This document shows positions 93 through 10,620 of a DNA stretch of 10,620 bases, in pieces. Source of the DNA: Desulfobacula sp. (GTDB taxonomy: Bacteria; Desulfobacterota; Desulfobacteria; Desulfobacterales; Desulfobacteraceae). The stretch spans positions 1 through 10,620 of the forward strand of contig JAOZRF010000062.1 in assembly GCA_029940245.1 (NCBI GenBank), written 5' to 3'. A model generated the notes under the pieces. That model did not search any database, was not told the origin of the DNA, and saw nothing but the letters and a program-made list of their open reading frames with translations. Position numbers and translations under genes: made by a program. Each line of letters begins with the position of its first letter. Within the stretch, counting starts at the first letter, position 1.

Positions 93-425
93 TTATTCCT
101 GTTCCAGGGCCTGGGCTGTGGTATCAAATATTTTTAAAATTGAATAAAATCCAGAGAGTTGAAATACATCCTTGGCGGGTCCGGTAAGACCGGAAAGGAA
201 AAGCTCCCTGTTTTGAGCCCGAAGTTTTTTGGCCGTTACCAGAACCACTCGGAGCCCGGCACTGCTGATATATTTTAGATCACTGCAATCCAGAATAATA
301 TTGGAAGTGGTTTTTTGTATAAGGTCCGTCAGAAAATTTTCCAATTCAGGGGAAGTGATGCCGTCTATTTTTTCTGATGCCGTAACAATCATCACCCCTT
401 TTTCTTCTCTTTTGTCAAGTTTCAC
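93..425 (-). CDS. STAS-domain protein (anti-sigma factor antagonist-like)
   Basis: A 110-residue single-domain STAS protein of the SpoIIAA/RsbV type, a cytoplasmic switch that normally binds an anti-sigma/kinase partner and is controlled by serine phosphorylation. The core motif DCSDLKYISSAGL is at residues 46-58. Aligned with the DSSGL motif of SpoIIAA, Ser55 is the expected phosphoacceptor. The frame stays open upstream to a TTG at 479, but the GTG at 425 is preferred because GGGGAG (432-437) sits six bases before it and the protein then starts next to the first STAS strand. No cognate kinase, phosphatase or sigma factor lies in the window, so its partner is unknown. It is divergent from the SUMF1-fold gene. 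The family call is firm; a sigma-factor role is inferred, since stand-alone STAS proteins also serve other kinases and membrane systems. Confidence 0.85.
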   Translation of the reverse strand: MKLDKREEKGVMIVTASEKIDGITSPELENFLTDLIQKTTSNIILDCSDLKYISSAGLRVVLVTAKKLRAQNRELFLSGLTGPAKDVFQLSGFYSILKIFDTTAQALEQE

Positions 426-495
426 AATATACTCCCCAAAAAAATCCTTAACTGAAAATAAACCCTTAACCCCAATCAAGCCTTCAATAGTTCAG

Positions 496-617: not shown

Positions 618-742
618 AAAGGGGATTTAACATCAGCATAAATTTCTTAAAAATACATGTCCTGAATAAAGGGTTTAAAATTTTTCTTTTTTATTCTGTA
701 GCCTTTTTTCTAGGATGGATATTTCCTGCTTTGCCCAGTGCA
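618..742 (+). other. In-frame 5' extension encoding a signal peptide, non-canonical start
   Basis: The frame of the SUMF1-fold gene stays open upstream of TTG 731 to a stop at 593-595. The extension reads as a textbook signal peptide: NKGFK, then hydrophobic IFLFYSVAFFLGWIF, then PALPSA before QEKK, with predicted cleavage after base 742. There is no ATG, GTG or TTG in the extension. A strong Shine-Dalgarno AAGGGGA ends at 625, seven bases or so before an ATC at 632; a CTG at 662 would give the neatest signal peptide but has no ribosome site. Either a rare start codon is used, or there is a start-codon mutation or base-call error. Confidence 0.6.
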
Positions 743-1486
743 CAAGAAAAGAAAATGACCAACCATATTGGAATGGAGTTCATCCTGGTTAATCCCGGAT
801 CATTTATGATGGGCAGCCCTGAAAATGAGCTGCATCGCGATCATAACGAAATTCTGCATGAGATGAAAATCATCAAACCCTTTTATCTTCAATCAACTGA
901 AGTAACGGTTAAACAATGGAAAGCTGTTATGGGAAAAAAATTATTTAACCGCATAAAAGGATCGGATAACATGCCGGTAGTCCAGGTTTCCTTTTATGAT
1001 TGCCAGAAATTTATCAAAAGATTGAATACTATGAATAAAAGGGTTTACAGGCTACCCACGGAGGTGGAATGGGAATATGCCTGCCGGGCAGGAACAACCA
1101 CGGCCTATAGTTTCGGGGATACAATTGACTGTTCAAAGGCCATGTATGGGAATAACCAGAAAAAACAAACCGAGTGTATACAACACTTCAAATCCATGGG
1201 ATTTGCTCCAAACCGGGCAGCGCCCGTTAAAAGTTTTGCCCCCAATCCCTGGGGTTTCTATGATATGCATGGAAATGTCTGGGAATGGTGTGCTGATCCT
1301 TATCAGGATTACAATAGCCATAAGCTTGATACAGGATATGGCCCCATAAAAACCAACACCAGGATCAAACGGGGAGGTAGCTGGTACAAATATGGGTGGT
1401 ATTGCCGCAGTGCCAATCGCGCCTATGCCCATCCCGGCGCAAAATTTCAAACAACTGGTTTCAGGTTGGCACTTGAGGCGGATTAA
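731..1486 (+). CDS. SUMF1/formylglycine-generating-enzyme-fold protein, probably exported
   Basis: A complete FGE-sulfatase (SUMF1) fold domain. From TTG 731 the landmarks are FMMGSP (25-30), EVTVKQW (57-63), YRLPTEVEWEYACRAGT (106-122), GFYDMHGNVWEWCAD (175-189), RGGSW (214-218) and GFRLA (243-247). In true formylglycine-generating enzymes two cysteines lie 4 and 9 residues after the second glycine of GGS. Here those places hold Lys220 and Cys225, so half of the catalytic pair is gone and sulfatase activation is unlikely; many family members are non-catalytic or act on other substrates. The listed start is only the nearest conventional codon. It has no ribosome site, and the upstream in-frame signal peptide implies a longer precursor and a periplasmic protein. 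It is coupled to the next gene by a one-base TAATG overlap, suggesting a shared role at the membrane. The fold is certain, the function unknown. Confidence 0.85.
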   Translation: MPSAQEKKMTNHIGMEFILVNPGSFMMGSPENELHRDHNEILHEMKIIKPFYLQSTEVTVKQWKAVMGKKLFNRIKGSDNMPVVQVSFYDCQKFIKRLNTMNKRVYRLPTEVEWEYACRAGTTTAYSFGDTIDCSKAMYGNNQKKQTECIQHFKSMGFAPNRAAPVKSFAPNPWGFYDMHGNVWEWCADPYQDYNSHKLDTGYGPIKTNTRIKRGGSWYKYGWYCRSANRAYAHPGAKFQTTGFRLALEAD

Positions 1487-4400
1487 TGCGGGCAAAACTT
1501 CTTGGATTATTAAAACTGTATGAAGAAGAAGTCAATCTGCTCCTGTGGACAGCCGCACTTTTGTTTATCATCCGAAGTTCAGGAATCATTCTCAACAATT
1601 ATGCTGAAACCGCTTTTCTAAAACGCTATGGTGTTGAATATCTTCCCATCGTCAATATGCTTAATGCCGTAGCCACTTTTATCATTACCGGATTTTTAAC
1701 CGCTTTTATGGGAAAACTGCCCGGGGCAAGACTTCTCACCTATGTTTTTATTTTCTGCGGCATCAGCGTTACCATGATTCGAATCCTTATGCCATTTGGT
1801 TTTGAACTTTTATATCCTCTGCTTTTTATGCTCAAGAGCCAATTTGAACTGCTCCAGGCAATGCTGTTCTGGAATATATGCAATGATATTTTCAATACCC
1901 GGCAATCCAAAAGACTTTTTCCCCTGCTAACTGCAGGAGGTGTGATCGGACTTATCCTTGGGAGCTTTGGAACACCATATTTTGCAAAATTATTCCAGAT
2001 GGATAATCTCTTATATCTGTATCTGTGTACGACGATTATCGGTGCTTCCATTGTTGAGGCCATGGGCCGAAGTTACCCTTCCATGATTTTTTCAGAAAAA
2101 AAGAAAACCAATGGGAAAAAAAAGGATTCCATGATCCAGGAATTCAAGAATGTACTACCCCTGATCAAGGATTCAGTTCTCATAAAAATAGTGCTGATTC
2201 TAACCTTTATGCCCAATGTGGTTATTCCCATCATAAACTATCAGTTCAATTATGCCATAAATGATCAGTTTGCCACTGAATCCGGCATGCTTCAATTTTT
2301 TGGATATTTCAGGGGTGGATTATATGTAATAAGCCTGTTCATTCTTTTGTTTGTAGGCAGAATCTATGGAAAATGGGGGCTTCCCGTTGCCTTGATGTTT
2401 CATCCCTTTAATTATATGATTGCTTTTATGGCATTTCTTTTCCGTTTTGACTTTATTTCAGCCATGTATGCCAGGCTGTCGACCAATATCATTCGAACTA
2501 CCATCAATGTGCCGGCAAATTCAATATTAATAGGTCTTTTTCCAAAATCCTACCGTGGAATGATCCGCCCCTTTCTCCGGGGCACTGTTGTCAGGCTGGC
2601 GCTTTTTGTGGGATCAGGACTGATTCTGATATCTGAAAATTTTTTCCACCCCAGATATCTGACCCTGGTGGCTTTACCCTTTATGCTGGCCTGGATTGCC
2701 GCGCCCTTTATCCTTAAAGCAAAATATCCCAAAATACTGATGGATTTAATTTCCAACAACCTTCTGGATATCAAAAGCATGGAAAAAAAGGAGCTGGGAC
2801 AGGTTTTCAAGGGGGATAAAATTCTGTCCCGGCTTAAACAGGCATTTCTATCTGCCAGGGGGAAAGATGCCATCTGGCATGGCAATTTATTGAAAATTTA
2901 TTCCAGTGAGGATCTGGATAAGAATATCCTTGAGACTCTCGAAAACCAGGATGAACAAACCAAGATAGCACTGATCAAGATGATTTCTCCCCAGGGCCTT
3001 GCTACCTCCCTGGAAAGTCTTGTGCGATTTTTAGATCCCCAAAAACCGGAACTCACCATTGCTATTTTAAAAATTTTCTGCCTCCATGGGCCAACATCCA
3101 TAAAAAAGATTGATGTCTCTGTTGCGCCTTACATCAACAATCCACATCCGGTTGTTAAGGGGTTTACAGCAGCATGTCTATATCAAGGGAACCCAAAACC
3201 TTATGGTGCCATGATTGATAGATGGATCAAATCAAATGAGTTAAACGATTTACAGTCCGGAATTGTCAGTGCAGGATTAAGCGGGAAAAAAGAGTACATA
3301 GATACCCTCCTTAAAATACTGTCCCGGCAAGATATTGATCAGATTATCCCGGACATTATCATTGCCCTGTCACGCCTCAGGGCCAGGGAATTGAATACCG
3401 TCATCTATTCCTACTTTTCCCATGACCATGAAAAAGTCAGGATGGCAGCCCTTGATGCCCTGGATATTAATGATGATTTTTCATTAAAAAAAGCCATTTC
3501 GCAATTGGCAGACAATTCAGATGGAATTCACAAATTTGCCATAAAAAAAATCAAAAATTCTAAATACCACAATAACAAAATCCTGGTTGAATCCCTTGGT
3601 ATACCAGGCACCAGAATACGAAGAGGCCTTTTTGAGCTGTTGGAAACCCTTGATATTAAAGGACTAGATGTGTTTATGTTCGCCAAAAAGAACATAGATA
3701 AATGTTATGCATATCTTGCCATGAGTCAGAATCTTGAAAAACAACCCCAGGGGAAAATGCGGGATCTTGCCATTGAACACTTAATTAATCAAAAAGAACT
3801 TGTCCTTGAAAATATTATCCGCGTTCTTGCGATCCGGGATCAAACAGACAGAATGAAAACTGCATGGAAAGGGGTTTTTTCACCGGATACCAGCCAGAGG
3901 GCCAACGCCATTGAACTTTTAAATGATATCATGGACCGCAAACTTTTTAATGCCATGCTGCCGCTTCTGGAAAGTCCGACACCGGCAATGGCTCTGGCAG
4001 AAGGCAAAAACGTGGCAATAATCCCTGAATTCGATCCTGAAGGAAAACAGGTTTTTTCAAATCTGATATCCTCTGAAGACTGGGTGGATGTTATCATGGG
4101 ACTTGGTCTTACCCAGGACATGCCCTCTCTGATTGAGGGGAATGGAATGCTCAAAAAATTGGAAAATTCAATCAATAAGAATATTTCAAAGGAAATGCAA
4201 ATGATTCTGATGAAGAAGACCAAACCATCAACCGATTCCCAGGCGAACGATCCCCAGAGGGTAAGGGAAATCGAGATTTCCCTTGGTGAAACAATATTGC
4301 TTTTAAAGGAGATTGAAATTTTTTCCGGTCTCAGCCCTGCTGAGCTGGCAGCCATAGCAACAGTAACAAAGCAACTTAATTATCCCGGGGATCGAACCGT

Positions 4401-4707
4401 TATCAAACAGAACGATGTGGGTGAAACCGTGTTTCTGGTTATTGATGGTGAGGTAGAGGTAATCAAGGAACTGGCAGATGAAAATAAAATGGTGATCGCT
4501 GTTATCAGCCAGGGAGACTCTTTCGGAGAGATGGCTCTATTGGAAAATGAACCTCGATCGGCAACCATCCGGACAACAAAACCATCCCGTTTTTTAATCA
4601 TCCATCAACAGGAATTCAAGGAAACGGCAATGGAATACCCCGGGATTGCTCTGAAAATCTGCAAGGTCTTAAGCCGTCGTATCCGCAATCTTCACAAAGA
4701 TAATTAA
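1486..4707 (+). CDS. Nucleotide-transporter/MFS-like membrane protein with HEAT-like and cyclic-nucleotide-binding domains
   Basis: A 1073-residue three-part protein. Residues about 15-410 hold roughly ten to twelve hydrophobic segments in an arrangement like the ATP/ADP-translocase (NTT)/MFS superfamily, with a basic cytoplasmic loop (SEKKKTNGKKK, 203-213). Residues about 430-900 are soluble and helical with short repeating units such as HEKVRMAALDALDIN, typical of HEAT/armadillo scaffolds. Residues about 940-1070 are a cyclic-nucleotide-binding domain with an intact phosphate-binding cassette, FGEMALLENEPRSAT (1013-1027), including Glu1015 and Arg1024 that normally contact the ribose and phosphate of cAMP or cGMP. 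The start ATG overlaps the stop of the SUMF1-fold gene, so the two are translationally coupled. Role inferred: a membrane transporter or sensor whose state is set by a cyclic nucleotide through the HEAT scaffold. The transported substrate cannot be told from sequence; nucleotide transport is possible but undemonstrated. No clear terminator follows before the convergent gene 20 bases away. Confidence 0.8.
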   Translation: MRAKLLGLLKLYEEEVNLLLWTAALLFIIRSSGIILNNYAETAFLKRYGVEYLPIVNMLNAVATFIITGFLTAFMGKLPGARLLTYVFIFCGISVTMIRILMPFGFELLYPLLFMLKSQFELLQAMLFWNICNDIFNTRQSKRLFPLLTAGGVIGLILGSFGTPYFAKLFQMDNLLYLYLCTTIIGASIVEAMGRSYPSMIFSEKKKTNGKKKDSMIQEFKNVLPLIKDSVLIKIVLILTFMPNVVIPIINYQFNYAINDQFATESGMLQFFGYFRGGLYVISLFILLFVGRIYGKWGLPVALMFHPFNYMIAFMAFLFRFDFISAMYARLSTNIIRTTINVPANSILIGLFPKSYRGMIRPFLRGTVVRLALFVGSGLILISENFFHPRYLTLVALPFMLAWIAAPFILKAKYPKILMDLISNNLLDIKSMEKKELGQVFKGDKILSRLKQAFLSARGKDAIWHGNLLKIYSSEDLDKNILETLENQDEQTKIALIKMISPQGLATSLESLVRFLDPQKPELTIAILKIFCLHGPTSIKKIDVSVAPYINNPHPVVKGFTAACLYQGNPKPYGAMIDRWIKSNELNDLQSGIVSAGLSGKKEYIDTLLKILSRQDIDQIIPDIIIALSRLRARELNTVIYSYFSHDHEKVRMAALDALDINDDFSLKKAISQLADNSDGIHKFAIKKIKNSKYHNNKILVESLGIPGTRIRRGLFELLETLDIKGLDVFMFAKKNIDKCYAYLAMSQNLEKQPQGKMRDLAIEHLINQKELVLENIIRVLAIRDQTDRMKTAWKGVFSPDTSQRANAIELLNDIMDRKLFNAMLPLLESPTPAMALAEGKNVAIIPEFDPEGKQVFSNLISSEDWVDVIMGLGLTQDMPSLIEGNGMLKKLENSINKNISKEMQMILMKKTKPSTDSQANDPQRVREIEISLGETILLLKEIEIFSGLSPAELAAIATVTKQLNYPGDRTVIKQNDVGETVFLVIDGEVEVIKELADENKMVIAVISQGDSFGEMALLENEPRSATIRTTKPSRFLIIHQQEFKETAMEYPGIALKICKVLSRRIRNLHKDN

Positions 4708-4727: not shown

Positions 4728-5846
4728 CTATTTAAGCTGTTTTTCAATTGCGCATGCCAGGTCATCTCTTCCCTGTTGGCGGAGTAAAGGAATCAGGGGC
4801 CTGTAAAATGGCGGCCTGACTCTGATGGTGATATCAAACTGAGAAATATGCTCTGAAGTAATTTCATCTTCAACAAAAGCCTGGGTTTTATCTAATAGTC
4901 CAAGGGCTGTCAATTCGGTCATAGTTCTGACACATTTTTCGCAATGACCACAATTCAAGCGGTCAGGAACATTGGCAAGACAGACCCTGAAATTCTGAAA
5001 TGCCACATCCCATTGAGAAACAATCCTTATTTTTTCGATCCGGGATAGCTGGAAATCCCTGTGCCTTATCCGAAGGTCCAGAGAAGAATATTCAGGGTCA
5101 AGCAATGGGTGGGAACCACAAGGGTGCAGGTTGGGTATGTCATAGGAAGACCCGATAAAAACAAGATTCATTCGCCTGGAAAAAGAATGGGCAATGGCTG
5201 CCAGAACCGAACCAAAAAAGCTGTTCAGCCAAAGTTCCCGTTCATCGCAAAGATGCCTGATATTGGTATAAACCGGTATCAAAGAAAGCCTGGCATCATT
5301 GGTAATTTTTGATATGGATTCCATGGCTCTGTCAAAAACAGGGTATTTCATCCCCCGCTCAACCACTCCGCCGATATCAAATCCATGAAGAAAAAACCCG
5401 TCTTTTACATATCCCGGATGGTTGCAGGGATAATGGAGCCGGTTTAACCGCAATGCAGCTAATGAATCCATGCCGCCGGACATGAACATGCCTGCACCGG
5501 GTATTTTAATCTGCCTGCTTTCAGACATTATTGGTGCTTCTATTATCAAGGGATTATATTTCCCCTTTGTCCAGTCTGAAAGGATATGCATGGCTGTTTC
5601 AAGGCCTTCCTTTAAGAAGGGACAGATTTTTGAATCCATTACAATTCTTTTTTCCCCAAAATGAATGGCAGGCAAAAGGCAACCCACCAGAAATGAATGG
5701 GGGTTGACATCAAAATATTTTTCATAAGCTACGGAGGTTTTGATAAAGACCTCTTTGTCCGGCTGGTTACAGTCCTCAAACCTGACAAGGGCCGTGGCCT
5801 TTACACTTTCTTCATCCTGAATCAGATTAAATTTAGAAATTTTCAT
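4728..5846 (-). CDS. QueC-like PP-loop ATPase (adenine nucleotide alpha-hydrolase-like)
   Basis: A 372-residue protein with an N-type ATP pyrophosphatase PP-loop, SGGMDS at residues 123-128, the signature of enzymes that adenylate a carboxylate or carbonyl (QueC, asparagine synthetase, GMP synthetase, NAD synthetase). Near the C-terminus Cys289, Cys299, Cys302 and Cys305 (CGHCEKC, followed by VRTM) form a C-x9-C-x2-C-x2-C set very like the zinc site of QueC. About 120 N-terminal residues precede the PP-loop, which is unlike short QueC proteins, and no other queuosine gene is nearby. A role as an adenylating, amide- or nitrile-forming or peptide-modifying enzyme in the local pathway is inferred. 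It is the last gene of a three-gene minus-strand operon, 19 bases after the RimK-like gene, and has almost no ribosome site, so it may depend on coupling. The fold is firm; the substrate is unknown. Confidence 0.75.
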   Translation of the reverse strand: MKISKFNLIQDEESVKATALVRFEDCNQPDKEVFIKTSVAYEKYFDVNPHSFLVGCLLPAIHFGEKRIVMDSKICPFLKEGLETAMHILSDWTKGKYNPLIIEAPIMSESRQIKIPGAGMFMSGGMDSLAALRLNRLHYPCNHPGYVKDGFFLHGFDIGGVVERGMKYPVFDRAMESISKITNDARLSLIPVYTNIRHLCDERELWLNSFFGSVLAAIAHSFSRRMNLVFIGSSYDIPNLHPCGSHPLLDPEYSSLDLRIRHRDFQLSRIEKIRIVSQWDVAFQNFRVCLANVPDRLNCGHCEKCVRTMTELTALGLLDKTQAFVEDEITSEHISQFDITIRVRPPFYRPLIPLLRQQGRDDLACAIEKQLK

Positions 5847-5865
5847 ATTATAGTATAATCATCTG

Positions 5866-6750
5866 TTATTTATTACAGGTTGATGTAACATAGTCTAATA
5901 TCAGCCTTGCAATATCCTTTCCAGTTGCCGCTTCAAGTCCTTTGAACCCAGGTGAATAATTCACTTCAAGTATCAAAGGAGAGCAGGCCTTTTCTACAAT
6001 AAGGTCAATGCCGGCAATTTGAAGATCACATGCTTTTGCAGCGTTAAGGGCAATCAAGGCCATGGATTCAGTCAATTCAACTGGTCTTGCATGACCTTTC
6101 TGGTGAATATTGGTTCTGAAATCATTATTGTCCGGCACAAGGGCCATGGCACCGGCTATCTTTTCACCTATCACCACCACCCTTATATCCATACGTTCCT
6201 GTGGCCTGATAAACTGCTGGACAATAAGGCCTTTTCCGGCCACTAGATTCCGGCTTAAAAAATCCTGGGCTTCTTTCTCGCTGTTGACCTTGATAACTCC
6301 ATCTCCCCCCATTCCATCCACCTGCTTGACCACCACGGGAAATCCGCCCAATTGTTTCACCGCGGGCAGAAAAGATGCCGATTTGGTAATAAAAAGTGTT
6401 CCCGGGACAGGCAGACCTGATGATACAAGCGCCTGAAGTGTGATAAACTGATTTCTGGCAATGGTAATGCCTTTAAGGCTGTTCACAAGGGGTATGCCCG
6501 AATGCATGAACTGGCCAAGGAGTACCAGGCCATAATCCCCCATGGGAGATCCCTGCCTGGGCATGATGACATCAATCTTTTTGTTTATCTTTTCAATCAA
6601 AAATTCAAATCGGCCGTCTTTTAAAGAACACAGGATATCATAGGGATTGATAAGAATGATCTCATTTCCCGACTCTTTTGCTGCCTGCTTTAAACGCATG
6701 TTGGGATGAAAAGAAAAATCATTTACAGTTATAACACCAATATTCATCAT
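5866..6750 (-). CDS. RimK-like ATP-grasp ligase
   Basis: A 294-residue ATP-grasp protein of the RimK (alpha-L-glutamate ligase) group, which joins a carboxylate, activated as acyl phosphate by ATP, to an amine. Visible elements: the adenine/glycine-rich loop PVVVKQVDGMGGDGV (138-152, Lys142 contacting ATP), VQQFI (177-181), DIRVVVIG (188-195), FRTNIHQKG (211-219, matching the WRTN segment of RimK), and the metal-binding tail around Asp249 and LEVNYSPGFKGLE (261-273, Glu262 and Asn264). All catalytic landmarks look intact and the length is that of the RimK family. The start ATG overlaps the stop of the GNAT-fusion gene as ATGA, and a second ATG follows at once. No ribosomal protein S6 gene is nearby, so S6 modification is unlikely. 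Its neighbours suggest that it adds an amino acid to a small metabolite or peptide; the acceptor is unknown. Confidence 0.88.
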   Translation of the reverse strand: MMNIGVITVNDFSFHPNMRLKQAAKESGNEIILINPYDILCSLKDGRFEFLIEKINKKIDVIMPRQGSPMGDYGLVLLGQFMHSGIPLVNSLKGITIARNQFITLQALVSSGLPVPGTLFITKSASFLPAVKQLGGFPVVVKQVDGMGGDGVIKVNSEKEAQDFLSRNLVAGKGLIVQQFIRPQERMDIRVVVIGEKIAGAMALVPDNNDFRTNIHQKGHARPVELTESMALIALNAAKACDLQIAGIDLIVEKACSPLILEVNYSPGFKGLEAATGKDIARLILDYVTSTCNK

Positions 6751-8585
6751 TTAAGTTCCCAGTCTTTTTCAATCATATTTTCAGGCATCCATATACCCAG
6801 TTTTTTGCCTGCCTTTTCGCTATAATATACGGCAATTTGTTTTGTGTTGTTTTTTTTAGCAATTTTCCGGGTGGCTGTATTGTCCTCACTGATGATGGAA
6901 AAAACCTTATGTTGCCCTGCCCTTTTTGTCAGCCCTTCAAGCAGTTTTGCGCCAACACCAAGCGCTCTGTATTCAGGCCTGACAGAGGTATAGCCTCTTT
7001 CAACAAAATGATTAAAATCAAGACCTGTAATGGTGTTCAGCCTCTGGATGAACTCAGGTCTTGGATGCTTTAGGCTGGAATTTCCCACGATGATGCCGTT
7101 TTCCTCGGCATATCCTATCAAATATGCCCTTTCAAGGTTATATCTGACATATTTTGTATCCACTGACCCTCCTGCTTCCACCATTGCACAGATCTCATCT
7201 AAAAAACCCGGGGGCAACTCATCCGGTTTCATAAAATTAAAGGTGATATTGCTTCCCAATGAAATAATGGTTTCATTGATTTTGTCTGCTCTCAGGCGGA
7301 AAAGATTTTTTTTTCCATGATAATTTAAATACAATAAAAGATGGGCAGGATCTGATAAAATTTTCCAGAAAGGTTCACCTGGAATCTGTTTTACACCTGT
7401 ATAGCCTTGCAGCAAAGGATCCATGGCATTGATGTCCGATTTAATATATGGATCATTGTCAATTAAATTGTCATAGGAATGGGCAATATTGGGATTTAAG
7501 GATATAAAGGTCAGCCAATCATTTTTTAAGGCATAGTCTGTAAGTCCGGTCAGGTTTACATGATTCCAGATACCTTGTTTGGAAAGATCCCATAAGGTTT
7601 TTATTTCAGCAGACTGTTTTTTTTCAGAACTTTCCCATTGGATCAAGGTCATGCCGGAGGAAAACAGATTTTGAATTTCATTACCATGATATATCGTATC
7701 AAAATTCTCCATAACAGCTTTGACACCAAAAAAAATATGGGAAACTTCTTTTTTTTCCACGAAAAATTCAAAAGAAGAAAACATATCCTCAAAAAGAAAT
7801 CCTTTTGCTCCAAATTTGTCTTTCAATTTTGCCACAAAATCCCAGAAAGAAAAAGCATCCTTAAAAAAACAAGATTGAAGCGGCAGTATCAATTCAGGTG
7901 TCAGGTATTCTTTTAAAGGGAATATGGAAAAGTCAGGTTCAACCTGTGTATCATGATTTTTAAGTTTCCAGAAGGTGTTTATCCATTTTAAAAAAAGCCC
8001 TGTATTCTGTAGGGAAAAACTATGGTCTGCACCAGGAGTATTATCTTCTGCCTGGTTTCTGCCCGCAAGGACAATTGTCTTTATTTCTGGAAAAACAGCT
8101 TTGATATAATTTATCATTGTAATTGCACAGGGAACCTGGGCTTCAGAGTCCAGAGCAAGGATGACCACCTTTGGAAGGGTCTGTTTCAGCTTTAAATCAA
8201 GTTTTTCATGGCAAAAAGAGATATAAGTTGGATTTTTATTGTCATCAATTACACTTGCGGCCTGAAAACCCCATCTGAACATGGAGGGATAAAAACCAGC
8301 AGAGTGAAAATATAACAAATCATCTATCCTGTTGCTGGCCACAAGATATTTTTCAGGATCATAAAATGATTCAGATCTTAAAAAATCCATCACCTTTTTT
8401 AAAAAAACATGGTTCACAAAAAAGTCAAGGTTAGCATCGTATACTATGGTTTTAAAGGCTTTATGCAAAAAACATCCTGCTGCCAGGGCAGCGGTAAAAG
8501 AGGGCATGGCAGGACTTGTCAGTGGTGGGGTTATGATCAGGACTGATATTTTATTTATGGCTTTCATCATTTTCTTATGATACAT
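6747..8585 (-). CDS. Degenerate B12-binding/radical-SAM-like protein fused to a GNAT acetyltransferase
   Basis: A 612-residue two-part protein. Residues 13-56 (SVLIITPPLTSPAMPSF, then VYDANLDFF) match the opening of the cobalamin-binding domain of B12-dependent radical SAM proteins, and FPEIKTIVLAGRN (165-177) fits its later strand. At 222-247 the segment FPLKEYLTPELILPL leads into CFFKDAFSF, exactly where the radical SAM CxxxCxxC cluster motif stands. Cys239 is kept, but the next two ligands are Asp243 and Ser246, so a 4Fe-4S cluster is unlikely. Residues about 447-600 form a GNAT acyltransferase with the acetyl-CoA loop RALGVGA (540-546) after VRPEY. The start ATG has AAGG five bases upstream. 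It is the first gene of the minus-strand operon and overlaps the RimK-like ligase by ATGA. N-acylation of an amine handled by the neighbouring ligases is inferred. The GNAT call is strong; the radical-SAM relationship is read from motif order and needs structural confirmation. Confidence 0.7.
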   Translation of the reverse strand: MYHKKMMKAINKISVLIITPPLTSPAMPSFTAALAAGCFLHKAFKTIVYDANLDFFVNHVFLKKVMDFLRSESFYDPEKYLVASNRIDDLLYFHSAGFYPSMFRWGFQAASVIDDNKNPTYISFCHEKLDLKLKQTLPKVVILALDSEAQVPCAITMINYIKAVFPEIKTIVLAGRNQAEDNTPGADHSFSLQNTGLFLKWINTFWKLKNHDTQVEPDFSIFPLKEYLTPELILPLQSCFFKDAFSFWDFVAKLKDKFGAKGFLFEDMFSSFEFFVEKKEVSHIFFGVKAVMENFDTIYHGNEIQNLFSSGMTLIQWESSEKKQSAEIKTLWDLSKQGIWNHVNLTGLTDYALKNDWLTFISLNPNIAHSYDNLIDNDPYIKSDINAMDPLLQGYTGVKQIPGEPFWKILSDPAHLLLYLNYHGKKNLFRLRADKINETIISLGSNITFNFMKPDELPPGFLDEICAMVEAGGSVDTKYVRYNLERAYLIGYAEENGIIVGNSSLKHPRPEFIQRLNTITGLDFNHFVERGYTSVRPEYRALGVGAKLLEGLTKRAGQHKVFSIISEDNTATRKIAKKNNTKQIAVYYSEKAGKKLGIWMPENMIEKDWELK

Positions 8586-8642
8586 TATCGCCTTATAGCT
8601 TGCAATATCTATAATACTGGGAGGGATTCAAAGTAAAGCATC
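8586..8642. promoter_or_regulatory. Short divergent promoter region between the two ligase operons
   Basis: All 57 bases between the GNAT-fusion gene and the GshB-like gene. Plus strand: a perfect TATAAT at 8610-8615 with no good -35 box. Minus strand: TATTAT (8611-8616) overlapping it, with a weak TTTACT (8632-8637) 15 bases upstream. The overlapping -10 boxes imply that the two operons are expressed from one shared control site. A GGGAGGG at 8619-8625 lies 17 bases before the plus-strand ATG, too far for an ideal ribosome site. Confidence 0.4.
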
Positions 8643-9617
8643 ATGAAAATTGCCTTTTTAATGGATGATTTAAGACAGATCAATCCAGTATGGGAAACCA
8701 CAACTGCCCTTATGTATGAATGCAACCAGAGGGGGCACACAGTATTTTTTCTGGAACCCCACGATGTATATATCCGTGGAAACAAAGTTGTTGCAAGGAT
8801 GCGGAACATATCAGTAAAACCTGACCTTCCCATCAAAGATTACTGGCAGATGCTTATTGAATGTCTCTACAAGGAAGACCTGATATTTGAAACCCTTATA
8901 GATCTGGATGTCTTGTTCCTGCGGAAAGACCCGCCCTTAAGTTATCAGGTCATGGAATTTCTTGGTCCTGTCAGCGATAAAATTTTCATGCTCAATGATA
9001 CTCTGGGGCAAATAAAGGGTAATAGTAAGATCTATACATTGAACTTCCCTGATATTATCCCTGAAACCCATATTTCCAGGGATCCTTCCCGAATCAGAAA
9101 AATAATTGATACCTTTGGTGGAGACATGGTGATAAAACCCCTTCAGGGACATGGCGGACACGGGGTTATCAAAGTCAGCAACCGGGATCCGGAAAATTTG
9201 AATTCATTGATCAATTATTATATTGATTCAGGACAACCCTATCCTGAACGTCACCCCACAATGGTTCAGGAATATTTAAAAAGCGTTAAATATGATGGGG
9301 ATGTCAGAATTCTGCTCTTAAACGGGGAAATCTTAGGGGCCATGGGCAGAAAATCGGTCTCCGGTGACTTTAGAACAAATGTCCACGCCGGTGCAAAAGT
9401 ATTTAAACACGAAATCACAAACAAAGAACGAGAAATATGTAAAAGTTTGAAAGATCAGTTAATAAAGGATGGTCTGTATTTTGTGGGCATTGATATTATC
9501 GGTGACAAGCTTGTTGAAATCAACTGCGTAAGCCCCGGGGGCATACCCCGGATCAATCAATTGGATAATGAAAAACTGGAAGTCAAGGTCATTGATTTTA
9601 TTGAACAGCAGATTTAA
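8643..9617 (+). CDS. Glutathione-synthetase-like (GshB-type) ATP-grasp ligase
   Basis: A 324-residue protein matching bacterial glutathione synthetase in length and motif order: N-terminal MKIAFLMDDL, FLRKDPP (92-98, like the RKDPP segment of GshB), VIKPLQGHGGHGV (163-175, ATP-binding Lys165 and glycine loop), VQEYL (208-212), GDVRILLLNGE (219-229), FRTNVHAGA (243-251), GIDIIG (282-287) and EINCVSPGGI (292-301), the metal-binding end. GshB adds glycine to gamma-glutamylcysteine, but no glutamate-cysteine ligase gene is in view. FRTNVH resembles RimK more than the GshB equivalent, so a different dipeptide-type ligation is as likely as glutathione synthesis. It is divergent from the GNAT/RimK/PP-loop operon and 12 bases upstream of the solute-binding lipoprotein gene. 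The family is certain; the product is open. Confidence 0.82.
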   Translation: MKIAFLMDDLRQINPVWETTTALMYECNQRGHTVFFLEPHDVYIRGNKVVARMRNISVKPDLPIKDYWQMLIECLYKEDLIFETLIDLDVLFLRKDPPLSYQVMEFLGPVSDKIFMLNDTLGQIKGNSKIYTLNFPDIIPETHISRDPSRIRKIIDTFGGDMVIKPLQGHGGHGVIKVSNRDPENLNSLINYYIDSGQPYPERHPTMVQEYLKSVKYDGDVRILLLNGEILGAMGRKSVSGDFRTNVHAGAKVFKHEITNKEREICKSLKDQLIKDGLYFVGIDIIGDKLVEINCVSPGGIPRINQLDNEKLEVKVIDFIEQQI

Positions 9618-9629
9618 AGGTCCGGCAAA

Positions 9630-10620
9630 ATGAACACTCAAAAGACTCTGGATAGATTATTGAAAAACAGTTTAAAACGCATCTTATTTACAGGGCTTGT
9701 GATAATAATTCTATGTATGATTTTATCCTGCCAGAAAAAAAATGAAACAAACCTGCTTAAAATAGGATTACCCCAGGAACCCAAATCATTAAATGTGTGG
9801 CTGGCAACTGATGGCAACTCACGTAAAATACTCTCCCAGATCTACCAGCCTTTGTATACTCGAGATCCAAAAACATTAAAAATAATTCCCTGGCTTGCCC
9901 GGGAAGACCCTGTTTTTAATAAAAAAAAATTGGCTTATACTATAAAATTAAGAGCTGCAAAATGGTCTGATGGAAGTAATTTTACATCTGATGATGTTGT
10001 ATTTAATAAAAAATTGTTCCTTGATTTTAAAATTCCGGGTTATGCCGGCAAATGGAAGGTGATAAAAAAAATTGATATCATTGATGATCACACACTTGTT
10101 TTCTATTTAAAAAAGCCCTCGGCAATTTTTCTTTCCCGGGTATTAACCACTCCCATGGTATCGAAAAAGGAATGGGAACAAATTGCAGCCAGGGCAAAAA
10201 AAACAGAAAAACCCTTACGCTCCCTACAGAACCATATCATTAAAAAACCATTGGGTACCGGCCCTTTTATGCTGGCTGAATACAAAAAAGGGGCCTATGT
10301 TTACATGACAAAAAACCCTTATTTTTTCGGTACGGGAAAAAAAATAGGCAATTATACGCTTGGACCCTATATAGACAGCATTCTTTTTAAAATATACGGG
10401 ACCAGTGATGTTGCAATACTGGCCCTTAAAAAAGGTGACATAGACATGTTCTGGTGGGAAATTCAGCCGGGCTACATAAAAGATCTTAAAGCCCAGCCCG
10501 ATATAAAGGTATTTTTGAATAAAAAAAGCGCTTTATATTATATGGGTTTTAACTTAAGAAAACCGCCATTTGATGATAAAATTTTACGACAGGCCATAGC
10601 CACCCTTATTGACAAAGAAT
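9630..10620 (+). CDS. Family-5 (oligopeptide-type) ABC solute-binding lipoprotein, 3'-truncated by window
   Basis: The reading frame runs open from ATG 9630 to the window edge (330 residues seen; the family usually has 500-600). The N-terminus is a lipoprotein signal: basic residues (KNSLKR), hydrophobic ILFTGLVIIILCMILS, then Cys34, so the protein should be lipid-anchored facing the periplasm. SBP_bac_5 landmarks are present: KIGLPQEPKSLN (44-55 region), KLRAAKWSDGSNFTSDDVVF (about 105-124), GTGPFMLAEYKKG (about 209) and NPYFF just after. Such proteins capture oligopeptides, dipeptides, nickel or similar ligands for ABC import. AAAGG, overlapping the stop of the GshB-like gene, serves as ribosome site, so both share one transcript. 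Being next to a peptide-ligase-type gene suggests that it binds a peptide-like compound; permease and ATPase genes are expected beyond the edge but not seen. Confidence 0.85.
   Translation, partial: MNTQKTLDRLLKNSLKRILFTGLVIIILCMILSCQKKNETNLLKIGLPQEPKSLNVWLATDGNSRKILSQIYQPLYTRDPKTLKIIPWLAREDPVFNKKKLAYTIKLRAAKWSDGSNFTSDDVVFNKKLFLDFKIPGYAGKWKVIKKIDIIDDHTLVFYLKKPSAIFLSRVLTTPMVSKKEWEQIAARAKKTEKPLRSLQNHIIKKPLGTGPFMLAEYKKGAYVYMTKNPYFFGTGKKIGNYTLGPYIDSILFKIYGTSDVAILALKKGDIDMFWWEIQPGYIKDLKAQPDIKVFLNKKSALYYMGFNLRKPPFDDKILRQAIATLIDKE

Follow-up and report, generated by a model that had tools for sequence, protein, structure and literature searches.

The locus described here combines several well-known protein families. 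ATP-grasp ligases form amide bonds, N-acetyltransferases of the GNAT family acylate amines, and PP-loop enzymes of the QueC/QatC group activate carboxylates; a GNAT, an ATP-grasp enzyme and an ATP-dependent carboxylate-activating enzyme together make up the logic of N-acetylglutaminylglutamine amide (NAGGN) synthesis. Family-5 binding proteins feed importers, and domains that bind cyclic nucleotides (cNMP domains) answer to cyclases. Fusions of an NTT domain with a HEAT-like region and a cyclic-nucleotide-binding domain (NTT-HEAT-cNBD) have been reported in free-living bacteria, chlamydiae and oomycetes; in the available part of that report they are uncharacterised and their link to cAMP is hypothetical (Major et al. 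2017, PMC5381601). Genes of these kinds lie side by side in a 10,620-nucleotide stretch of Desulfobacula sp. DNA (the window), which is the entire contig C487 (JAOZRF010000062.1) of a genome of 566 contigs, estimated to be 79.5% complete. These genes are physically and phyletically coupled. The whole module may serve the synthesis of a capped peptide, its release by a cyclic-nucleotide-gated NTT protein and its recapture by an Opp importer, a reading to which we assign a probability of roughly 0.45.

The gene cluster and its coupling across genomes

The initial annotation described five adjacent genes in two divergent units with tight overlaps, and the coordinates agree with this. On the minus strand, the gene of a degenerate radical SAM domain fused to a GNAT N-acetyltransferase (6747..8585) overlaps by 4 bp that of a RimK-family ATP-grasp carboxylate-amine ligase (5866..6750), which is followed after 19 bp by the gene of a QatC/QueC-like PP-loop ATP pyrophosphatase (4728..5846). 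Beyond the divergent intergenic region of 57 bp common to the two units (8586..8642), the gene of a GshB-like ATP-grasp ligase belonging to a discrete clade (8643..9617, plus strand) precedes by 12 bp that of a family-5 peptide-type substrate-binding protein, a probable lipoprotein, which is cut by the contig end (9630..10620, plus strand). The five genes are real, but the system proved to be larger, and an NTT transporter, an FGE protein, a cyclase, a separate radical SAM enzyme and OppBCDF had been missed. In the window, a PvdO-like FGE/SUMF1-domain gene (731..1486, plus strand; Pfam PF03781, 168.5 bits) has its stop codon overlapped by one base by the start codon of the gene of a 1073-residue NTT-HEAT-cNMP-binding transporter (1486..4707, plus strand), the end of which lies 20 bp from the start of the five-gene span. 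On the other side, contig C562 of the same genome carries the remainder of the binding protein gene, OppB, OppC, OppD, OppF and a radical SAM gene, in this order, and its end overlaps the right end of the window by 59 bases, of which 58 are identical. Because of this gene order and overlap, the GshB-like, binding protein, OppBCDF and radical SAM genes very probably form a single right-hand unit. The window region is thus regarded as most of one functional module, extended to the left by the NTT and FGE genes and to the right by OppBCDF and the radical SAM gene.

The GNAT fusion was first searched against 297 genomes of the phylum, of which 24, its own included, gave matches at E 0.001; 13 GNAT neighbourhoods were fetched, and the remaining ten were weak matches in the N-terminal region. 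The fetched neighbourhoods repeatedly carry NTT, GshB-like, RimK, QueC-like, binding protein and OppBCDF genes. When named genomes were scanned with an alignment of five QueC-like sequences, 79 loci emerged, which by their titles come mostly from Desulfobacterales/Deltaproteobacteria and in addition from Deferrisomatales, Geothermobacter, one Thermoflexales and one Phycisphaeraceae; Desulfosarcina widdelii, D. alkanivorans, Desulfatitalea alkaliphila and Geothermobacter hydrogeniphilus are among the named host strains. Neighbourhoods were mapped with bit cut-offs of 35 to 200, set by family. RimK was found in 65 of the 79 loci, GNAT in 62, NTT in 48, FGE in 39, a cyclase in 34, the GshB-like gene in 32, the binding protein in 23, OppB in 14, a separate radical SAM gene in 11, OppD in 9 and FGase (N-formylglutamate amidohydrolase) in 4, the loci being non-independent (L119 and L122 are from one genome, L081 and L101 share one isolate name) and many contigs ending early. 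When only the 36 loci flanked by 5 kb or more on each side are considered, the counts were GNAT 33, RimK 33, NTT 27, GshB-like 24, FGE 22, cyclase 20, binding protein 18 and OppB 13. Of the 70 loci that extend far enough, 63 have the RimK gene just upstream of the QueC-like gene and in the same orientation, and GNAT is at most 2.4 kb away in 55 of 63 QueC-like loci. In a control clustering of the other open reading frames of at least 50 residues, the widest family covered 10 of the 79 loci and looks antisense, and the next-widest families include ObgE-, RpmA-, NadD- and RsfS-like genes, as named by eye. The initial annotation had considered that the homologues might be scattered; the neighbourhood is in fact kept, as the counts for RimK, GNAT and NTT demonstrate.

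Antisense long reading frames in GC-rich relatives (c4, c10 and c15) were taken as partners at first and were then judged spurious. A precursor of a ribosomally synthesised and post-translationally modified peptide of the graspetide/microviridin kind was looked for as well, and no family of reading frames of at least 50 residues occurred in more than 10 of the 79 loci, shorter frames and distant precursors lying outside this search.

The composition of the module varies between lineages. An operon of radical SAM, RimK, GshB-like, binding protein and OppBCDF genes occurs in L200 and L205 (family f30), with variants in L202-L204 (f58) that also hold radical SAM, RimK, GshB-like and Opp genes. 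The GNAT fusion, RimK, binding protein, OppBCDF and NTT genes all run in one direction in L032-L035 (f25), and GshB-like and FGase genes lie near NTT in L165 and L170 (f25); the QueC-like protein is absent from these f25 genomes at E 1e-10. NTT, GNAT, QueC-like and GshB-like genes are found in L031, L036 and L041 (also in L097, L099, L102 and L103), with RimK absent from the stretch read. In view of these variants, the GshB-like, NTT and mostly the GNAT proteins would be the constant parts, and the others would modify the product or its handling. N-formylglutamate-amidohydrolase-like genes (L036 11615-12544, L170 12953-13735, L202 and L203) adjoin the QueC-like or GshB-like genes or lie downstream of Opp. 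In the f25 loci, a DctM-type TRAP permease, an NMT1-like binding protein and a PAS-LuxR regulator adjoin the GNAT fusion (L033 12876-17292).

Co-occurrence was also counted across the 297 genomes of the phylum. The GshB-like clade was present in 17 genomes, full-length NTT in 17 and both in 15 (Fisher 2.8e-21), and all 13 genomes with GNAT contain both (1.4e-19). Counted by family, the GshB-like clade occurs in 8, NTT in 9 and both in 7, and the family-level associations have p values of 2.4e-8, 9.1e-8 and 3.0e-8 on the assumption of 96 families, the highest label seen. The cut-offs (NTT above 700 bits, GshB-like at least 497 bits, GNAT E 4.7e-9 or better) were set after viewing the score lists, and one NTT cut by a contig end (G094) was left out of the count. 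The NTT and GshB-like genes lie on different contigs in G020 and G273, and in G020 well inside long contigs; close linkage is dispensable for the coupling, which holds where the genes lie apart. Only these two serve as examples of unlinked parts, since the contigs of G103 look split at the radical SAM-GNAT gene and the matches in G058 are near contig ends. Ten selected named loci come from nine genomes, all of which also carry NTT, among them cases where the locus as fetched shows none (in some the gene is within about 15 kb by coordinates). The D. widdelii genome has two NTT copies (G297:C1 near 4.04 and 5.21 Mb), and two GshB-like copies, one near each NTT, are found at G619:C1 near 4.06 and 5.21 Mb, coordinates that point to one and the same chromosome of D. 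widdelii; this species may carry the module in duplicate.

The biosynthetic enzymes compared with known systems

Both ATP-grasp ligases named in the initial annotation were confirmed at their positions. They share with GshB and with RimK/MptN/LysX the same Pfam domains and the E-x-N metal-site motif, but fall below every equivalog cut-off. The RimK-type ligase scores 194 bits with TIGR00768 (cut-off 143.4) and has 7qyr as its best PDB match (E 5.1e-41), while for the RimK (ribosomal S6 ligase) equivalog it reaches 137.6 vs 331 bits. In the GshB-like protein both GSH-S_N (PF02951, 69.1 bits) and GSH-S_ATP (PF02955, 178.6 bits) are present, and the scores are 246.4 vs 299.05 with TIGR01380 and 270.8 vs 272 with PRK05246, that is, 1.2 bits short. 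As to the partner expected for GshB, the GshA family PF04262 was found in none of the 13 GNAT host genomes and PF04107 was over its cut-off in 3 of them; in the Desulfobacula genome neither was matched, at its 79.5% completeness. Ordinary glutathione synthesis was rejected on the sub-equivalog scores together with these counts. The initial annotation had itself considered that the locus might consist of ordinary GshB and RimK among unrelated genes. Each family is indeed common alone, the GshB-like protein is only slightly under PRK05246 and PF04107 does occur in a few hosts. Such a chance neighbourhood is nevertheless scarcely credible, since it is contradicted by the coupling at the level of both locus and genome and by the lack of PF04262 in the hosts.

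The label QueC-like given to the PP-loop protein holds as far as the PP-loop enzyme is concerned: the SGGMDS phosphate loop is at residue 123, and SGGxD is kept in all 39 aligned rows. However, the protein reaches 12 bits with the Pfam QueC family PF06508 (gathering cut-off 22), and its predicted fold is nearer to QatC. In the model, the N-terminal extension, the QueC core and the C-terminal helices of QatC all appear to be present over the full length, an assignment obtained by VIA-align of Foldseek's ranked list, Foldseek alone giving no match at E 0.001. The zinc-type site of the window protein, CX9CX2CX2C, is a variant of the CX8CXXCXXC of QueC, and CX8-9CGxCEKCxRT occurs in 39 of 39 rows. 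The motifs by which canonical QueC binds 7-carboxy-7-deazaguanine (YPDC, YxQxHxxE and VPxRN) were each found in none of the 39 rows and a separate canonical QueC (258 bits) is encoded in the same genome, and canonical preQ0 synthesis was rejected on these grounds. The protein also differs from QatC of qatABCD and Cap9 of the type IV cyclic oligonucleotide-based antiphage signalling system: it is 10% identical to QatC, and in place of the QatC zinc variant CX19CGxCxxRR, as given in the available parts of PMC13279940 and PMC13329287, it has the motif of its own family. In the main text of the 2026 survey of PF06508 (PMC13329287), as far as this is available, ATP-grasp, RimK and acetyltransferase have no occurrence. 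This seems to be a QatC-like fold beside which no phage-defence partner is seen, on a branch that the available part of the survey does not mention. Protein modification at an N-terminal glycine, as in QatB/CdnD, was rejected since none of six window proteins starts with Met-Gly.

Among the 297 genomes the QueC-like protein is strong in the Desulfobacula genome and in G134, G176, G225 and G267 and distant in G273, G161 and G092, which gives 8 genomes at E 1e-10. Its closest relatives in named records, with 89-91% identity, include Candidatus Desulfobacula maris and Desulfobacula sp. Distant PP-loop relatives lie away from the ligases in L179 (9902-12308), L115 (1884-4306), L181 (330-1235) and L122 (10034-10712), as tandem pairs in L179 and L115; the copies in L179, L115 and L181 stand amid genes that look polysaccharide-like by eye, a second habitat of the family.

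A QatC-like modifying enzyme, a cyclase and a cNMP-responsive membrane effector might together constitute a phage-defence module of the Pycsar or Qat kind, and the cNMP domain of the NTT protein does match Pycsar/TIR models. We consider this highly improbable. PADLOC detected no Qat component among the seven window proteins, the genes outside the window not being scanned, the two cyclases scanned carry HAMP and weak dCache sensors, the neighbours are biosynthetic and transport genes, and some copies adjoin obgE/rpmA/nadD-like genes (by eye).

The GNAT fusion was recognised correctly in the initial annotation, and its partner domain, left unnamed there, is a degenerate radical SAM fold. This domain spans approximately residues 11-401 and the GNAT domain approximately residues 445-606. 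The CX3-7CX2C motif of the [4Fe-4S] cluster is absent from the window protein and from the pre-GNAT parts at 62 loci, several of these parts being truncated at contig ends or missing altogether. The fold is shared with B12-dependent radical SAM C-methyltransferases (TIGR03975) and AprD4, but the cluster cysteines are gone in the window protein, and the intact enzymes of relatives score 151.4 (L200), 146.9 (L043/L205, one protein) and 120.7 (L038) against a cut-off of 281.85. The radical SAM domain appears to be decaying into an acetyltransferase appendage. The decay is graded, with the motif intact in L038 (9112-11421), lost in the window (6747-8585) and shortened or absent in L044-L120. The separate radical SAM enzyme on C562 scores 512 bits and is 54% identical to that of L037.

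ATP-grasp dipeptide ligases, B12 radical SAM enzymes and GNATs are found in peptide antibiotic pathways, and this was counted in favour of a Trojan-horse peptide antibiotic cluster with GNAT self-protection and Opp uptake, as were the weak likeness of the GNAT to ArsN1 (19.6 bits) and of the relatives' radical SAM enzymes to PhpK and ArsL. All of these scores are, however, far under the cut-offs, cyclases and NTT would be unusual parts, and the GshB-like protein keeps 59-69% identity to that of the window across families, unlike diversifying antibiotic loci. A cluster of this type is very unlikely.

Possible transport, cyclic-nucleotide control and recapture

The NTT protein consists of a TLC ATP/ADP-carrier-like domain (26.9 bits, cut-off 21), a HEAT-like region (HEAT_2 25.7, just under 27.7) and a C-terminal cyclic-nucleotide-binding domain (cNMP 68.8, cut-off 27.5) with the cassette FGEMALLENEPRSA, and its profile search matches the ATP/ADP carriers 9j3j and 9j3n. 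This is the three-part architecture of the NTT-HEAT-cNBD fusions, and in G196, G053 and G282 a short frame of its own, directly downstream, encodes the cNMP part, as also described in the available part of PMC5381601. While the fusions described there are uncharacterised, the gene of the window protein is linked with those of peptide ligases, of a GNAT and of an Opp importer and with nearby cyclases. At G273:C1:104764-107892 lies another NTT-HEAT copy, which contains three in-frame TGA codons and may be a paralogue in decay. In L160 and L161 the NTT-HEAT-cNMP gene adjoins and faces an FGE gene, away from the ligases, an arrangement according to which NTT and FGE may be the smallest transport unit.

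Class III cyclases of at least two types adjoin the system (L037, L038, L044-L121 and L170). In L044, a relative with 91% identity, such a cyclase is encoded on the strand of the FGE gene, its frame stopping about 85 bp ahead of the FGE frame, and in L038 a HAMP cyclase precedes NTT; the two cyclases scanned have HAMP and weak dCache sensor domains. At the position that sets the purine choice, usually a Lys in cAMP-formers, many of the aligned sequences have Glu or Gln; the messenger may thus be other than cAMP, with cGMP as a candidate. In the window, the place of the L044 cyclase upstream of FGE-NTT is occupied by a STAS-like gene (93-479, minus strand; named by eye). This gene was rejected as a member of the system, having no homologue in the loci of three mapping runs, among them the 79 QueC-like loci. 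An Rfam gathering scan of the window gave no matches.

The peptide-type binding lipoprotein of the initial annotation was upheld by its family-5 match (PF00496, 170.8 bits), the lipobox-like ILSC being read by eye where a strict motif script gave no match. For the FGE protein, PvdO (5hha) is the best solved relative by sequence; a signal-peptide-like stretch lies just upstream of the listed start, and the protein is predicted to be periplasmic. These two proteins bear on the idea of a metallophore or siderophore-like compound, a chelating peptide that would leave through NTT, be matured by the PvdO-like FGE protein and be re-imported with its metal by a Nik/Opp-type system. Besides the PvdO match, the binding protein of the window matches NikA at 76.8 bits, Opp4A at 77.5 bits and CntA, which binds staphylopine, at 29.5 bits, and the methanobactin binder MbnE is among the solved relatives of the L037 binding protein. 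However, all binding-protein matches are far under the equivalog cut-offs, the best solved relative of the L037 protein is the oligopeptide binder AppA, and the regulators seen were cyclases, PAS-sigma54 and PAS-LuxR, none of metal type, metal regulators and outer-membrane receptors not having been searched for. A metallophore is therefore doubtful, yet along with an osmolyte it is one of the two serious rivals.

The osmolyte would be a NAGGN-like compatible solute, that is, an N-acetylated and C-amidated di- or tripeptide, with Opp recapturing leaks and NTT serving for controlled release rather than for secretion. The logic of NAGGN synthesis and the presence of a recapture importer were counted in its favour, and a few record names suggest a marine or saline source (L046 Modern_marine, L053 Old_saline, L084 GSL). 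NAGGN synthesis itself pairs the TIGR03103 GNAT/ATP-grasp synthetase with an amidotransferase of asparagine-synthetase type, an M42 peptidase also belonging to the system. The window module resembles it in that a single locus would provide for the acyl cap, the peptide bond by ATP-grasp and the activation of a carboxylate. The analogy drawn in the initial annotation accordingly holds as logic, but each step is carried out by different protein families, and NTT, FGE, radical SAM and Opp come in addition. The NAGGN synthetase family TIGR03103 was over its cut-off in none of the 13 GNAT genomes, and the matches under the cut-off are generic (all 13, and all 14 controls). NAGGN proper was rejected on this ground, and an osmolyte system would have to be an analogue of it. 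Since a periplasmic FGE partner and a radical SAM enzyme are unexpected for an osmolyte, and GNAT genomes without the QueC-like protein could not amidate in this way, we consider an osmolyte unlikely, though to be taken seriously.

Proposed function and its significance

From the chemistry of the families we infer the product and its chemistry, in which order the enzymes act, which peptide is involved and in which direction NTT transports. In the capped-peptide reading, the GshB-like and RimK-like ligases would build a small non-ribosomal peptide, probably containing glutamate, a guess made only because of the RimK family and the FGase partner. The GNAT would cap its amine with an acyl group, the QatC/QueC-like enzyme, where present, would adenylate the carboxylate to give an amide or a conjugate, and the cobalamin-type radical SAM enzyme, a separate gene in the Desulfobacula genome, may modify the skeleton. 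The NTT-HEAT-cNMP protein would move the compound, or its counter-ion, across the inner membrane, being opened or closed by a cyclic nucleotide from the neighbouring cyclases; outside, the predicted periplasmic FGE/PvdO-like protein may bind or mature the compound, which the binding protein and OppBCDF would re-import. In some lineages the N-formylglutamate-amidohydrolase-like enzyme may recycle it. The initial annotation had suggested that an N-acylated, amidated or otherwise adenylated dipeptide-like metabolite is made and recaptured; this is reasonable and partly supported, the product being deduced from the enzyme families.

Several observations weigh against the capped-peptide reading. 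In the available part of PMC5381601, the NTTs of known function carry nucleotides, not peptides. The five families differ in constancy: no more than 5 of the 13 GNAT genomes give a strong match to the QueC-like protein, and G273 gives a distant one. The 20 kb covered around each of L031, L036 and L041 showed no RimK, FGE or Opp gene, and the QueC-like loci L115, L116 and L122 are without GNAT, RimK and NTT. Since QueC-like, RimK, FGE and Opp are patchy, the product cannot be identical everywhere. The GshB-like clade is itself patchy in the order (85 of 389 genomes, 27 of 150 genera), and the module is therefore dispensable. Exceptions to the co-occurrence are G231 and G167, which have the GshB-like clade without NTT or GNAT, G279 and G042 (the latter 67% complete), which have NTT without the clade, and G020 and G058, which have both without GNAT. 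Both co-occurrence profiles drew their sequences solely from positive genomes (the 8 rows of A2 and the 9 of A7 are all from GNAT-positive genomes), so that the co-occurrence may be somewhat flattered; for the GshB-like clade a large effect of this kind is unlikely because of the gap between scores of 497 bits or more and the next at 263. Finally, a cyclase beside the window is suggested by relatives, and here the STAS-like gene stands in that place.

Alternatively, the module may make and secrete a nucleobase- or nucleotide-peptide conjugate that is read back by Opp. The QatC/QueC-like enzyme would then join a purine-like or other heterocyclic carboxylate to the peptide of the two ligases, and NTT, a member of a nucleotide-carrying family, would export the conjugate under cyclic-nucleotide control. 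We hold this to be very improbable; if true, the conjugate would be a new class of extracellular signal or cofactor.

Each of the families is known, and a description of the gene set was not found in the literature searched, most subscription journals being outside its scope. As judged from the sequences, the locus would represent a biosynthesis-transport module whose parts and control had not been linked before. Within one phylum, gene order and co-occurrence connect the NTT-HEAT-cNMP protein with biosynthetic partners, with an importer and with cyclases, and the question of its function, posed in 2017, is thereby made experimentally approachable in named strains.

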